A stretch of 64,000 nt of DNA from Demequina sp. NBRC 110055 (GTDB taxonomy: Bacteria; Actinomycetota; Actinomycetes; Actinomycetales; Demequinaceae). Made by a program: the position numbers and the translations under genes. How positions within the stretch are numbered: position 1 is the stretch's first letter; every line of letters starts with the position of its first letter. The notes below the pieces were generated by a model. It was given only the letters and a program-made list of their open reading frames with translations, made no database searches and was not told where the DNA came from. Shown piece by piece: positions 21,786 through 50,123 of the stretch. The stretch covers positions 62,001-126,000 of the forward strand of contig NZ_BBRL01000008.1 of assembly GCF_002090135.1 (NCBI RefSeq), given 5' to 3'.

Positions 21786-22655
21786 TCACGGCGGTGCCCC
21801 GTAAACGCACACCTCAAGCGTCTGAACGTCGGTGCCTTGGAGCGCCATCGCGGTGCCGGACTGGATGTAGACGAGGTTCTCGTTGGGCGGGTCCTGCTGC
21901 GTGAACGTGAACTCGTAGCCCGAGGATGGCGACGGAGTGGAACCGACGTAGTAGACCGTTGCGCCGGACGCGAGATAAGCATCGATCGCAGGCTGGATAT
22001 CGATGGTGATGCCCCAGCCGTAGAAGAAGGGATCCTCGGCCTCGTCGACGAGGCCTTGAACCGTCAGAGTCGAGCACACCTGGCCGGGGCTCGTCACAGG
22101 CGCGGAGACGGACCACGTGTACCACTCCCCGTTGTCGGGCTCCGGCGGCGGTACCTCGTTGTTGTAGCCGCACACCTCGACCTTCGCGACCTGTCCCGCC
22201 TCGATCGGGGTGTTATTGCTGTACTCGCTAAAAGATCCCGATGAATCGGTGTTGCCGACGATGACCAAGGGCGACGTGCGCGGCTCAACGATCTGGCCGC
22301 CGTTGTTGACCTGGATCTGCGAAGGATCGTCGTGGTTCCACGGCCTTTCGTCGGGATCCACCGTGATGGACCATTCCACCGGCGTGTCCGATGTGGTGGT
22401 GACCTCGACGATGGCGCAACTGGACAACGGTGACGCCACGGTCCACGTGATGTCGACGATGTCCGTGTTGTCGCCGGGGTCGATACCGCCTCCGCCCCCG
22501 CTTCCTCCGCCGCCCTCGCTCCAGTCGCCCGCCGCGACAGTCCCCGAGAACCACGCATCGTCCGTCCACACGGCCTGCGTGGCCACCGGAACCGCCGCCA
22601 GGGCGCCGAGGCTGACCATGGCGGCGACGAGCGCGAGGCGCGGTCGGCGATTCAC
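21786..22655 (-). CDS. SipW-type secreted protein, fourth gene of the surface cluster
   Basis: About 289 residues. The N-terminus has a basic start, a hydrophobic core and the block AVWTDDAWFSGTVAAGDW, the same processing-site pattern as the first gene of the cluster (AAWTDDVWFSA), typical of substrates of SipW-like signal peptidases. A Gly-rich linker follows, then a region of about 230 residues rich in Thr, Pro and Asn with scattered Cys, probably extracellular beta-sandwich. No LPxTG motif or C-terminal membrane segment. GTG 22655 is chosen because it overlaps the stop of the upstream gene (GTGA). The exact function is unknown; a minor fibre or adhesin subunit is possible. Confidence 0.75.
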   Translation of the reverse strand: MNRRPRLALVAAMVSLGALAAVPVATQAVWTDDAWFSGTVAAGDWSEGGGGSGGGGGIDPGDNTDIVDITWTVASPLSSCAIVEVTTTSDTPVEWSITVDPDERPWNHDDPSQIQVNNGGQIVEPRTSPLVIVGNTDSSGSFSEYSNNTPIEAGQVAKVEVCGYNNEVPPPEPDNGEWYTWSVSAPVTSPGQVCSTLTVQGLVDEAEDPFFYGWGITIDIQPAIDAYLASGATVYYVGSTPSPSSGYEFTFTQQDPPNENLVYIQSGTAMALQGTDVQTLEVCVYGAPP

Positions 22656-23242
22656 GACGGAGCCCCTTCCTGCTCCCGGCGGGGCCGGGCGAGGGCAATC
22701 GCGAACACGCCCGCGACGACGGCGCCGCCCGCGAGCGCGATGACCGTCCACGGCAGCGCCCCTCCGGTGAGTGGCAAGGGATCGCCTGTGCCGCCGCTGT
22801 CGGCTCCGCCGTTTCCTTCGATGACGGTGGCCTCGGACTGCAGCGTCACCACGCCGAGCGCCGACCCGGCTCCGGCGGAAGCCGTCTGAGGGAGCGTCGC
22901 CGCGATCTCCAACGTGTAGCTACCGGGTGCAAATCGCCCGCCGGTCAGCGGCGGCGCGACATCCTGGCACCGGTCCGCGCTACACAGCTGAATATCCCAC
23001 GCGATCTCCTGGGCGAGGCCCTCACGCCTCACCCAATCGGAACGCACCACAGTGGCAACTTCGGGCACCTCGACCGCGTGGGAACGCGTGACGGTCTCGC
23101 CTGGCAGGAGAAGGCCCAGGTCCACGTCGACAGCAATATCGACCTGCGCTCGGGTGGAGCCGATGGAGCCCGCGAGGGCCGCGCATGCGGCGAAGAGGAT
23201 GGCGATGAGCACGGCGGGCAGGGCGCGCACGGCGGACCTCAT
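22652..23242 (-). CDS. LPLTG-anchored surface protein
   Basis: 196 residues. Signal peptide at the N-terminus (VLIAILFAACAALAG), an extracellular region of about 120 residues with one Cys pair, then LPLTG at 156-160, a hydrophobic stretch and an Arg-rich tail: a complete sortase sorting signal. So the protein should be fixed to the cell wall or to a pilus by a sortase encoded elsewhere. It overlaps the signal peptidase gene by four bases upstream and the next secreted protein by four bases downstream. Likely the wall anchor of the structure made by this cluster; this is inference from position and motif. Confidence 0.75.
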   Translation of the reverse strand: MRSAVRALPAVLIAILFAACAALAGSIGSTRAQVDIAVDVDLGLLLPGETVTRSHAVEVPEVATVVRSDWVRREGLAQEIAWDIQLCSADRCQDVAPPLTGGRFAPGSYTLEIAATLPQTASAGAGSALGVVTLQSEATVIEGNGGADSGGTGDPLPLTGGALPWTVIALAGGAVVAGVFAIALARPRREQEGAPS

Positions 23243-23793
23243 GGCGTGCCTCCGCTGTCCGCGGACGCGCCCCTGCCGCGAGGGACTTCCGGGCCGCCGC
23301 GGTCAGGGGCGGGGCCACGCAGCAACGACAGTCCCAGAAGCGCGCCGATCGCGATCATGGCGGGAATCACGACCCCGGGCCGACTCACGTCCGCGATGGC
23401 CTCTCCCAGACCGGGAATGACCACGGCGACCTCCCAGAGATCGCCGTCCACGAGGTACGGCTCGGGATCGTCGATGGGGTTGGCGTCGCCACGCAACGTG
23501 AGCGCGATCGCGTCACCGTGCCGCGCGACGTCGACGACGCGGTGAGTCACCACATTCCCTGTGACCGTCGACGGCAGTGAGACGACGTCCCCCACTACCA
23601 CCTCGGCGCTATCGAGGGGTCGATCAATGATCAATGCTCCGGTGGGGATCTCCGGTTCCATGGAGCCGGAGACCACGATCAGCGGCTTGATCCAGTCTGC
23701 GGCAGTGGCGAGCCACACTGCGCAGGTGAGCGCGCCAAGGGCGGCGGCGGCCCACAGGGCCGCGCCGCCGAGAGCGCGCAGGAGGCGGATCAT
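23239..23793 (-). CDS. SipW/S26B-type signal peptidase I
   Basis: Membrane serine peptidase of the ER/SipW type, with catalytic Ser in VSGSMEPEIPTG and His in VVTHRVVDV in place of the Lys of classical LepB, then GDAN. 184 residues from ATG 23793, with membrane helices near residues 5-30 and 140-165. The frame is open about 80 codons further upstream but that part only shadows the preceding gene. It is placed between genes whose products carry SipW-type leader peptides (AWTDDxWFS), so these are its likely substrates, as TasA is for SipW in Bacillus. Confidence 0.85.
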   Translation of the reverse strand: MIRLLRALGGAALWAAAALGALTCAVWLATAADWIKPLIVVSGSMEPEIPTGALIIDRPLDSAEVVVGDVVSLPSTVTGNVVTHRVVDVARHGDAIALTLRGDANPIDDPEPYLVDGDLWEVAVVIPGLGEAIADVSRPGVVIPAMIAIGALLGLSLLRGPAPDRGGPEVPRGRGASADSGGTP

Positions 23794-23815
23794 GGCAAGC
23801 GGCGTGGAGCCCGGC

Positions 23816-24364
23816 TCAACTCGCGGTGCCGACAACGAGGACCGAGAAGGTGCCCGACGTGTTGATGTAGGTCTCAGGCCACGTGTCGCTCGTCGAGACG
23901 GTGACGGTAAAGGTGGTGGTCTCGTCAGGCGCGAGTGTGGTGGCCCCGAGGGCGCCGATGGTGACGGTCGCGGGGTCGGTGCCAGTGAAGATGGCGCCGA
24001 GGAGCTCCTGCGCCACGGGAGCCGCGAGGTCAATGTCTGACGTGCCCGCGTTGAGCAATCCGAGTTCCACGTCGACGCTCGAGCCGGGAACCAAGCCTAC
24101 AAACGTCTCGGACGGGATCTCGATGACGACGTCTTCGCCGTCGACCGTGGAGTCGGTCGAGTCGATGCCTTCATCGAGCCACGCGCCATCAGGCTCCACC
24201 CGACCCTGGAGGTCAAACGTGGCGGCCTCGGCCTCGGCACTGAACCACACGTCGTCGGTCCATGCGGCGGTCGTCACGGCGGCACCGATGCCTGCCACGG
24301 CGATTCCCGCGAGGACGAGCTTGGCGCGGTCGCGCCTCAACGATCGCGAGTCACGGTCTGTCAT
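23816..24364 (-). CDS. TasA/CalY-like SipW-dependent secreted protein
   Basis: 182 residues. A basic N-terminus and hydrophobic stretch (KLVLAGIAVAGIGAAVTTAAW) lead into TDDVWFSAEAEAATFDL, the SipW-dependent signal and first strand typical of camelysin/TasA-like proteins. The rest is a Thr/Val/Ala-rich beta domain with no cysteines. Family members form amyloid-like or surface fibres in biofilm matrix. First gene of the cluster and probably the major subunit. An AT-rich stretch with TATATT at 24435-24440 upstream could be the -10 of its promoter. Confidence 0.8.
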   Translation of the reverse strand: MTDRDSRSLRRDRAKLVLAGIAVAGIGAAVTTAAWTDDVWFSAEAEAATFDLQGRVEPDGAWLDEGIDSTDSTVDGEDVVIEIPSETFVGLVPGSSVDVELGLLNAGTSDIDLAAPVAQELLGAIFTGTDPATVTIGALGATTLAPDETTTFTVTVSTSDTWPETYINTSGTFSVLVVGTAS

Positions 24365-48383: not shown

Positions 48384-48773
48384 CTACCGGCTGTCGCCGA
48401 TCACCGCCGAGGGCGCCTCGCCACTTTCGAGTTCCCGGCCGATGCGCCGCACCAGCGGATAGACGCCGTCACCATTCGGCCCCATCTCGGCCACCACAAG
48501 CAAGATGGCGTCGGATCCCACGGGGCGCGACACCACTTGCTTCTCGGCTGCGTACACCACGTGTCCCTGCATGCCCTCGAGGCCCATGGCCCCGCCTACC
48601 ACCGCGGCAGTCGCCGCCGCCATCGCGGCCGCCGCGGCACCCTTCTCGCGTTCCTCCAGCGACGCCGTGTCGAAGTGCGCGACGCCGTCGGCGTGTGCGA
48701 CGACCACGCGGGACACCCCGGGGTGCTCGAGAAGTGGCGCCACCATCAGCGCACAGTCTTGCCGCGCCATCAT
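48384..48773 (-). CDS. Roadblock/LC7-domain protein C
   Basis: 129 residues from the ATG pair at 48773/48770. VAPLLEHPGVSRVVVAHADGVAHF, an Ala-rich helix and a central beta-sheet ending VSRPVGSDAILLVVAEMG match the Roadblock/LC7 fold, which binds small GTPases. Start overlaps the stop of the preceding Roadblock gene (ATGA). Last gene of the four-gene unit. The fold call is by pattern, since these proteins diverge strongly. Confidence 0.7.
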   Translation of the reverse strand: MMARQDCALMVAPLLEHPGVSRVVVAHADGVAHFDTASLEEREKGAAAAAMAAATAAVVGGAMGLEGMQGHVVYAAEKQVVSRPVGSDAILLVVAEMGPNGDGVYPLVRRIGRELESGEAPSAVIGDSR

Positions 48774-49150
48774 GACGCGATCCGAGTGTTCGACAAGGCG
48801 CGCAAGTGCTCGGCCTCGGCACCGGCTGCCCGCAGCGCCGCGGTGAGATCCGTCTCGGCATCTACCAGGACGGCGAGCAGGTGGCCCGCATCGATGGGAC
48901 ACACCACGAGTGCTCCATTCTCGGCAAGGGTGATGTTCGCGCCGGCCACTCCCAGGGCAAACGACGTGGCGACGGTCGCGGCAAGGCCGTTGACCGCTGC
49001 CGTGAGCGCCGCGCCGCCGTCGCGCTGCGCGAGCGGCACGTCGTCGTACATCGCGATGCCGTCGGCGCGGGCGATGATCACGCGCCGCACACCGGCGAGG
49101 CTTTGTCTCAGGCGCGCGGCAGAAATCAGTCCGTGCTTGGGGACGATCAT
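48770..49150 (-). CDS. Roadblock/LC7-domain protein B
   Basis: 126 residues: VRRVIIARADGIAMYDDVPLAQRDGGAALTAAVNGLA, then VAGANITLAENGALVVCPIDAGHLLAVLVDA, the strand-helix-strand pattern of Roadblock/LC7 proteins such as CvnB and MglB. It overlaps the GTPase stop (ATGA) upstream and gene C downstream, so the three are made together. Such proteins act as GTPase activators or dimer scaffolds for MglA/CvnD-type GTPases. Confidence 0.78.
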   Translation of the reverse strand: MIVPKHGLISAARLRQSLAGVRRVIIARADGIAMYDDVPLAQRDGGAALTAAVNGLAATVATSFALGVAGANITLAENGALVVCPIDAGHLLAVLVDAETDLTAALRAAGAEAEHLRALSNTRIAS

Positions 49151-49698
49151 GCGCTCACCCGATGCAGGCGGGCACCGTCGGCCAGTGCGAGTGCAGCCGC
49201 GAGCACGCGGTTGACGTCCTCGGGCACGCGCGGGTCACACGCCACCACCGCCGCACCCGGCACCCCGACGAAGCGAGCAAGTTCTTCCGCATCCATCTGA
49301 GCAGAGTCCCATCTGTTCGCAGCGACAAGGTACGGAACCGACGGCGCGAACTCGGCGAAGCGGCGCACGACCGACTTCAGTTGGGCGAGGGCCTGCAGCC
49401 GGCTCGCGTCAACGAGCAACACATAGGCACCCATGCCCTGGGCGAGCAGCGGCCACATAAAACTAAAGCGCTCCTGGCCGGGTGCACCAAAAAGCGTCAC
49501 AGTACGGCGGGTTCCTGAGTCAGTTGCAAGACGCACCGTGCCGTGGTCCATCGCGACGGTGGTTTGCTCCTTCAGGCGCGCGGTGTCATCGGATACTGCG
49601 CGCTCAGACGTCAAAGGGTCGTCTGCCGCGGTGGCGACAAACGTCGTCTTGCCGGCTCCGAAGGGCCCCGCGACAAGAATCTTGGTGATGTCAGTCAT
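49147..49698 (-). CDS. Small Ras-like GTPase, CvnD/MglA-type
   Basis: 183 residues. G1 GPFGAGKTT (about 9-17), switch region with a threonine-rich DDTARLKEQTTVAMDHG, G3 FGAPGQERFSFMW in which DxxGQ is APGQ, and G4 AANRWDS in place of NKxD. This is the pattern of the conservon GTPases (CvnD) of actinobacteria. Signal is probably passed by GTP/GDP state through the flanking Roadblock proteins. The ATG has no strong Shine-Dalgarno sequence; the frame is open 21 codons more, which could extend the protein. 59 bases downstream of Roadblock gene A. Confidence 0.85.
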   Translation of the reverse strand: MTDITKILVAGPFGAGKTTFVATAADDPLTSERAVSDDTARLKEQTTVAMDHGTVRLATDSGTRRTVTLFGAPGQERFSFMWPLLAQGMGAYVLLVDASRLQALAQLKSVVRRFAEFAPSVPYLVAANRWDSAQMDAEELARFVGVPGAAVVACDPRVPEDVNRVLAAALALADGARLHRVSA

Positions 49699-49757
49699 AA
49701 TGTGAAGAGGACTGGGGGCGACCCGCGCAAGAACCACGGAGCCGCCCCCCTCACGTC

Positions 49758-50123
49758 TCAAATATCGAGCGACTGCTCGATGGTCTGGAGCTGGCGGCGC
49801 GCCATCGCGAGGTTCGCCCGGTCACGCGTGAGCACGAGGTAGATGAAGAGCCCCTGTCCCGAGGCCGAGCTCACCAAACGGATGAGGTGGAACTGGCTGC
49901 CGAGTGTGATGAGGATGTCCTCGATGCGGTCTTCGAGACCCAGCGAGTCCATCACGCGGAGCTTCGCGCGCACCACTTCGGTGTTCCCCGCAGCCGCGAG
50001 CTCGAGGTCGACGCCTCCGCCAGCGGTAGCGAGCGTCATTCCGGAGTCGAAGTCGACCAGCGCAGCGGCCATCGCGCCGTCGATCCCCATTGCTGCCGTC
50101 ATGGATTCATTCGGAGTTGCCAT
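49758..50123 (-). CDS. Roadblock/LC7-domain protein A
   Basis: 121 residues with DGAMAAALVDFDSGMTLATAGG, EDILITLGSQFHLIRLV and GLFIYLVLTRDRANLAMARRQL, typical of actinobacterial Roadblock proteins encoded beside CvnD-like GTPases. ATG 50123 has GGGAGGG 7 bases upstream. First gene of the unit. A structured leader with a terminator-like hairpin lies 84-181 bases upstream. Confidence 0.82.
   Translation of the reverse strand: MATPNESMTAAMGIDGAMAAALVDFDSGMTLATAGGGVDLELAAAGNTEVVRAKLRVMDSLGLEDRIEDILITLGSQFHLIRLVSSASGQGLFIYLVLTRDRANLAMARRQLQTIEQSLDI

Follow-up and report, generated by a model that had tools for sequence, protein, structure and literature searches.

The window analysed here, a stretch of 64,000 nucleotides from the genome of Demequina sp. 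NBRC 110055 (2.82 Mb in 14 contigs, 99.89% complete), carries a compact block of four genes encoding a Ras-like small GTPase and three proteins of recognized or predicted Roadblock fold, termed RbA, RbB and RbC. This GTPase-Roadblock module is real, conserved and distinct from the conservons, and it looks to be undescribed: among the titles and openings of abstracts listed in searches of the open literature, which brought up conservon, Myxococcus and Asgard work among other things, none gives an account of the gene set, and the name Demequina or Sanguibacter combined with 'roadblock' returned no papers. The strongest facts concerning it are its presence or absence as an intact block and the predicted Roadblock fold of RbA.

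The block fills positions 48384-50123 exactly, lies on the minus strand and reads in transcription order RbA, GTPase, RbB, RbC. The gene for RbA (49758..50123, 121 aa), defined by its open reading frame (ORF), an alignment of homologues and an AlphaFold2 model, is separated from that for the GTPase (49147..49698, 183 aa; Pfam, a structural model and trees) by 59 nt (49699..49757) in which a hairpin is predicted. The Roadblock/LC7 protein RbB (48770..49150, 126 aa) and its paralogue RbC (48384..48773, 129 aa) follow. A sequence-only reading of this DNA had all four genes joined by ATGA overlaps. This is the case for GTPase/RbB and for RbB/RbC, each in 16 of 17 Demequina loci, but not for RbA and the GTPase gene, which are 26-68 nt apart across the 17 loci. 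A scan for sigma-70-like promoters gave 0 sites and is uninformative for this organism.

A search with the GTPase gave a match in 70 of 99 relatives. Within Demequina, the module GTPase (at least 58% identical) is found in 17 of 44 genomes, and a conservon-type copy (38-41% identical) in all 44. Every one of the 17 genomes with the module GTPase shares the order RbA-GTPase-RbB-RbC with all four frames intact, and the order is therefore not due to chance. Profile searches of the 44 genomes recovered RbA, and RbB at 161 bits or more, in exactly the 17 that bear the GTPase. Among the 27 non-carriers, the RbB profile reached at most 37.5 bits in 10 and matched nothing in the other 17. The fourth gene of two loci (L049 and L051) has RbB as its best BLAST match, yet is placed in the RbC clade by the tree. 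In G008, a further GTPase-RbB pair (L039:4781-5757) lies beside iclR, at a distance of 4.3 kb from the full module.

The surroundings of the module in carriers include homologues of leuCD, iclR, flavodoxin, DCC1-like and clpB genes; in the stretches fetched for L050 and L051, nothing but the DCC1-like gene and gltX is seen. In the module-free genomes for which the region was fetched (16 of the 27), module genes were not found in the 16-kb stretch around iclR in any of the 16, and in seven of them the flavodoxin and DCC1-like matches end less than 100 nt apart, as an empty site would look. On a tree built from genes of the neighborhood (31 of 33 loci, since L050 and L051 lacked iclR and leuC in the stretch), presence and absence require nine changes of state, at least eight of them forced by well-supported branches. 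Shuffled labels need a mean of 10.6 changes, and nine or fewer suffice in 100 of 500 shuffles; the presence of the module therefore hardly follows descent. Close pairs that differ in this respect are L040/L193, L049/L202, L046/L205 and L045/L203. The idea of a conserved effector gene beside the module was rejected, as the neighboring inserts vary among the loci read; L038, for example, has a gene for an adenosine deaminase there and L047 one for an acyltransferase. Secreted-looking proteins of ~1000 aa (judged by eye) lie between iclR and the module in L038, L039, L040, L041, L043 and L048, in what is a variable region.

RbB and RbC can be recognized as Roadblock proteins from sequence across the family, with Robl_LC7 matches at E<=1 in 19 of 19 and 17 of 17 members, respectively; those of the window score 18.5 and 21.6 bits, below the 23-bit cut-off. 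The two are related to each other (hhalign 99.6%). In the Roadblock tree, RbB and RbC of Demequina group together (Shimodaira-Hasegawa-like approximate likelihood ratio test, SH-aLRT, 93), and the RbC sequences form a single clade (99). Duplication would give this pattern, and RbC looks like a Demequina-lineage duplicate of RbB. Both fall outside the CvnB clade.

RbA is not recognized from its sequence. Robl_LC7 matches it in 0 of 18 members, and profile searches gave no sequence match to Pfam, NCBIfam or any Roadblock chain in the PDB; comparison of its profile with that of RbB gave an hhalign value of 0.2%, from a shallow alignment. Its AlphaFold2 model, built from 12 sequences, has a predicted local distance difference test score (pLDDT) of 90.9 and the element order H-E-E-H-E-E-E-H, and its top structural match is the Streptomyces Roadblock protein 3kye (Foldseek E 2e-6; Z 16.8, root mean square deviation 2.2, 114 residues aligned). 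Other best matches are MglB, archaeal Roadblocks, and Ragulator and p14/MP1 chains. A Roadblock fold is thus predicted for RbA, and the earlier claim of three Roadblock proteins is borne out at the level of predicted fold, by sequence for RbB and RbC and by the model for RbA. RbA is also the best conserved subunit, being 64-98% identical to that of the window among Demequina carriers, whereas the figure for RbC, the closest relative excepted, is 27-53%. The turn that carries an Asp-Gly pair in RbB (DG in 17 of 19, EG in two) and RbC (DG in 17 of 17) reads D/E-x-G in all 18 RbA sequences.

The GTPase scores above the Pfam cut-offs for Ras and Roc and has a full set of G1-G5 motifs, including G1 GPFGAGKTT, G4 NRWD and G5 CDPR. 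Its AlphaFold2 model has a Ras-superfamily fold (pLDDT 86.9), with residues 32-47 modelled poorly. Eukaryotic Ras, Rho and Rab chains make up most of the fold-search matches shown; that MglA is missing from these excludes nothing. In an alignment of 19 module GTPases, NRWD occurs in 16, DPR in all 19 and TT in G2 in all 19, and G3 reads FGTPGQ in 16, FGAPGQ in two and FGMPGQ in one. In the window (near 49485) and in L036, its closest relative, Ala takes the place of the G3 Thr, as Met does in L045; altered GTP turnover is a possible consequence. With GTPGQ in 16 of 19 and TT in 19 of 19, the features of MglA Groups 2-5 fit the family, the window itself having GAPGQ, and the marks of MglA Group 1, a TVPGQ G3 and an arginine in G2, are absent from the 19.

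The sequence-only reading had called the block conservon-like, without CvnA and CvnC. Conservons (current definition in PMC13343842, accessible part), or AGPS, with genes CvnA-D and the mycobacterial mfp locus among them, resemble the module as operons of Actinomycetota in which the gene for a small Ras-like GTPase adjoins one for a Roadblock protein. They differ in having a CvnA kinase, a DUF742 protein (CvnC) and one Roadblock protein rather than three. No CvnA-like histidine kinase gene was seen among the ORFs around the module, and no DUF742 gene lies beside it. The genome does, however, hold both at G000:C4, where a full CvnA-B-C-D set is found, with NIT, HAMP and HATPase_c domains in CvnA and, in CvnC, the sole PF05331 match of the genome (G000:C4:613432-613788). 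The reported absence is therefore correct for the locus and not for the genome. The full set was shown in this genome only; for the other Demequina it is the conservon-type GTPase copy that was recorded. The CvnD motifs, given as G4 NxFD and G5 DAR in the accessible part of PMC4316618, are missing from the module GTPases, which carry NRWD and DPR instead, while DAR is present in 15 of 15 conservon rows of the alignment. In a mixture-model tree of 46 of 111 GTPase rows, the conservon GTPases form a clade (100/100) that leaves out the module, and the module GTPases form one of their own (97/92). With no adjoining CvnA or DUF742 gene, a GTPase clade of its own and a separate complete conservon in the genome, the module is not a conservon. 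Descent from conservons is thus not supported, and the suggestion of a separate module free of kinase and DUF742, in the form of a conserved four-gene unit, is upheld.

Among wider relatives of the GTPase, from a contig search of which 80 of 319 were used, prominent members are actinobacterial loci that combine a Roadblock gene, a DUF4388 gene and a GTPase gene and are PATAN-linked and Group 5-like. DUF4388 was found in 39 of 41 neighboring genes scanned, the misses being in L090 and L101 (Streptomyces-size or similar genomes, no GTPase). The scan covered 38 of 61 upstream ORFs, taken from 71 loci, and three others, the remainder being non-actinobacterial, cut or of another kind. PilB/PilT-type ATPases, sought with a PilB-like protein from L165 as the reference, occur in 42 of the 71 loci. 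Loci L115-L182, many from Coriobacteriia and uncultured Actinomycetota, have Roadblock-DUF4388-GTPase sets, often with genes for PilB/PilT-type ATPases, which suggests an MglA-like pilus regulator in Actinomycetota. In the accessible parts of the literature, a neighboring DUF4388 or PATAN gene is described as occasional for Group 5-like GTPases (PMC4316618), and a link between PATAN, MglA and pili comes down to a mention of two PATAN proteins, not followed there (PMC11580455). These loci share with the module a GTPGQ G3 and a neighboring Roadblock gene; the module differs from them in having no adjoining DUF4388 or pilus ATPase genes and three Roadblock proteins, where usually one is detected. 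In composition, the module matches neither the conservons nor the DUF4388 systems.

Other systems also offer parallels for the organization of the module. The sequence-only reading had named MglB and RomR as regulators of MglA; RomR is a response regulator, and MglB together with MglC fits better as a Roadblock parallel (PMC7949163, accessible part). According to the same source, MglC is a Roadblock protein less than 9% identical to MglB; it binds MglB at 2:4 and reportedly no longer binds MglA. The Myxococcus MglA-MglB-MglC system resembles the module in that a GTPase is combined with more than one Roadblock protein, and in the divergence of those proteins within one system, as RbA is unrelated to RbB by profile. 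The module differs from it in lacking the Group 1 TVPGQ and intrinsic G2 arginine, and no response-regulator gene was seen at the locus. The Group 3 MglA proteins of β- and γ-Proteobacteria are accompanied by one or two MglB homologues per GTPase and have a lysine-less G4 and a DxR G5 (PMC4316618, accessible part), as the module does; a conserved receiver/winged-helix-like partner gene of that group is missing here. A eukaryotic counterpart is the Ragulator/LAMTOR scaffold of the Rag GTPases, in which several Roadblock-fold subunits serve small GTPases and which includes the p14/MP1 chains matched by RbA; its membrane-anchoring p18 has no counterpart seen in the module.

The gap between RbA and the GTPase gene was compared, by its predicted fold, with dinucleotide shuffles of itself. 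The z value is -2.96 in the window and -2 or below in 14 of the 17 Demequina loci (exceptions L041, L042 and L048), and it reaches -4.70 in Sanguibacter (L114). In two other loci with a three-gene form of the module, the hairpin is weak in L225 (-11.1 kcal/mol) and amounts to -27.6 kcal/mol in L227, for which there is no z. Control gaps of 25-70 nt between co-directional genes, taken from the same and from module-free loci with genes called by a crude finder, gave a z of -2 or below in 3 of 41, and module and control gaps differ at a Mann-Whitney p of 4.7e-7, with related genomes counted as separate. The gap sequences mostly differ between loci while the hairpin persists. The natural reading is that an intercistronic stem-loop may set RbA apart from the downstream genes.

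With moderate confidence, and arguing from sequence, models and analogy, we propose that the module is a stand-alone Ras-like GTPase switch with its own Roadblock proteins as regulators and no sensor kinase. RbB and RbC, apparent tandem duplicates, would form homo- or heterodimers that engage the GTPase in the way that MglB engages MglA, acting as a GTPase-activating protein (GAP) and/or in nucleotide exchange. RbA would be an MglC-like adaptor that joins the complex of RbB/RbC and GTPase to a cellular place, and the hairpin after RbA would allow its amount to differ from that of the other three proteins. Control of GTP turnover by RbB/RbC, with RbA as the adaptor, is the most likely assignment by analogy, because of the contrast between DG and D/E-x-G turns and the precedent of MglB and MglC; for MglA Groups 2-5, the turn with the Asp-Gly pair is predicted to be oriented towards the GTPase, with the Asp near enough to reach it (PMC4316618, accessible part). 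The output can only be guessed at, as the placement or activity of a machine at the surface or pole. Type IV pili would be the first candidate, because of the PilB/PilT-type ATPases at relative loci and a pilus cluster on another contig of the same genome (G000:C10), with PilB, PilT, PilC and PilM families and two prepilin-like genes. A bolder version is speculative and rather unlikely. Here, RbB and RbC would form an asymmetric heterodimer that acts as the switch of a GTPase of its own, the divergent RbA would be the adaptor of this kinase-free, Ragulator-like complex, and the proportions of the subunits would be fixed by an mRNA hairpin.

Several observations weigh against the proposal of a stand-alone switch. 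The window has Ala in G3 where 16 of 19 family members have Thr, and RbA is counted as a Roadblock protein on its predicted fold alone. L041, L042, L048 and L052 lack the hairpin or have a weak one, and the strongest control hairpin (L201, z -7.19) lies beside a flavodoxin gene, in the same neighborhood of a module-free genome. As to the pilus, no ATPase gene for it was found in the 19 module or three-gene stretches scanned (0 of 19), and DUF4388, the usual neighbor of the pilus-linked relatives, occurs in 0 of 44 Demequina genomes. Every one of the 44 Demequina genomes, carriers and non-carriers alike, and all 14 control genomes have ATPases of the T2SSE family. These therefore do not follow the module and are no proof of pili in a given genome, and a pilus ATPase is uninformative as a marker of module presence. 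Flagella were rejected as the output: flagellin was found in 3 of the 17 carriers and in 10 of the 27 non-carriers, which shows no link with the module.

The wider relatives invite a different account, in which the module branched off in one lineage from the pilus-linked, Group 5-like Roadblock-DUF4388-GTPase systems of actinobacteria, parted with the DUF4388 component and has kept its control of type IV pili. This is possible, if doubtful. A quick tree of 111 rows nests the module GTPase within an actinobacterial set often accompanied by DUF4388 genes (SH-aLRT 88, 83 and 90 at successive forks), where long branches meet and where the row label 'Rb-DUF4388-GTP_actino' preceded the DUF4388 scan, only some rows having been checked. 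The frequency of DUF4388 and pilus ATPase genes in that set and the pilus cluster of the host point the same way. Against this, the 46-row tree joins the module to proteobacterial rows (97/93, again with long branches), although a joint clade of module and DUF4388 GTPases is not rejected there (approximately unbiased test, AU, p 0.18), and neither a pilus ATPase gene beside the module nor DUF4388 anywhere in Demequina was found in the scans above. The complete conservon of the genome raises another thought, that the module is a rewired conservon whose extra GTPase and Roadblocks are signalled by the CvnA kinase and CvnC of G000:C4; a CvnA and a DUF742 gene located elsewhere in the genome and working with this GTPase were what the sequence-only reading would have taken against itself. 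Both genes do exist, the 46-row tree does not reject module and conservon GTPases as sister groups (AU p 0.22), and NRWD and DPR resemble the lysine-less pattern of Groups 2/3 (PMC4316618, accessible part). The conservon at G000:C4 has, however, its own CvnB and CvnD, the conservon-type GTPase is there in all 44 genomes with or without the module, and RbB/RbC lie outside the CvnB clade, all of which makes such rewiring distinctly improbable.

A role other than that of a regulated switch can also be envisaged. If the three Roadblock proteins formed a Ragulator-like scaffold with the GTPase as its client, the complex would be a recruiting platform and not a GAP. The Ragulator and p14/MP1 chains among the best structural matches of RbA would agree with this, as would the six loci that pair RbA with an RbB-like gene and have no GTPase gene next to them (L228, L088, L090, L092, L097 and L101). 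Fold alone, however, cannot separate a platform from a GAP or a guanine nucleotide exchange factor, inspection of the four proteins by eye showed no membrane anchor, and we consider a platform unlikely. Finally, the patchy occurrence of the block could mean that it is a dispensable accessory that is on its way to being lost and serves no one role throughout. The nine changes on the locus tree, hardly below the shuffled mean, and the poor conservation of RbC are what such drift would leave, but the high identity of RbA among carriers and the four intact frames, in order in 17 of 17 loci, make it very improbable. The stand-alone switch remains the reading that we prefer.

Outside Demequina, the module takes a three-gene form, RbA-GTPase-RbB, in L052, L114 (Sanguibacter suaedae), L225, L226 and L227; no separate RbC match was found in these five loci. 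Samples of 396 genomes each were drawn from larger groups at the levels of order and phylum. In the former, 24 genomes (16 Demequina, seven of one other genus and one of a third) have a GTPase match at E<=1e-50, and RbA occurs in 56, including all 24; in the latter, RbA occurs in 21. Of 20 stretches around further RbA matches (L225-L244), three have the GTPase, one (L228) has an RbB-like gene alone, and 16 have only RbA among the profiles used. The RbA and RbB-like genes of L088, L090, L092, L097 and L101, from Streptomyces-size and similar genomes without a GTPase match, form clusters with a divergent RbA-like gene, and in L090 and L101 a gene without a Pfam match lies between the members of the cluster. 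Six genomes of ~8-9 Mb (G494, G531, G544, G557, G596 and G618; family f15, genus g271) have six RbA-profile matches each. In deep-branching actinobacterial genomes, a gene of 219-222 aa is located between GTPase and RbB (L087:4335-4994 and L086:2237-2905), the L087 copy having no Pfam match.

In the window, the module is flanked on the left by a convergent flavodoxin-like gene, the best Pfam scores of which are below the cut-off, and on the right by a divergent gene for a DCC1-like thiol-disulfide oxidoreductase (PF04134, formerly DUF393). At 21786-24033, the ORF list, read by eye, has a signal-peptidase-like protein close to one that looks secreted and includes a Gly-rich stretch; the two look like a SipW/TasA-type pair.

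The bacterial work that we found centers on Myxococcus MglA and the conservons, and the cassette described here is small and kinase-free. Pairs of Roadblock proteins and GTPases have been proposed as ancestral minimal switches (PMC9481161, accessible part). Because the block is present or absent as a whole between close relatives, cells with and without it are directly comparable. RbA is widespread in Actinomycetota, often with no adjoining GTPase gene, and because it escapes the Pfam Roadblock model, current counts of Roadblock proteins in this phylum are likely to be too low.

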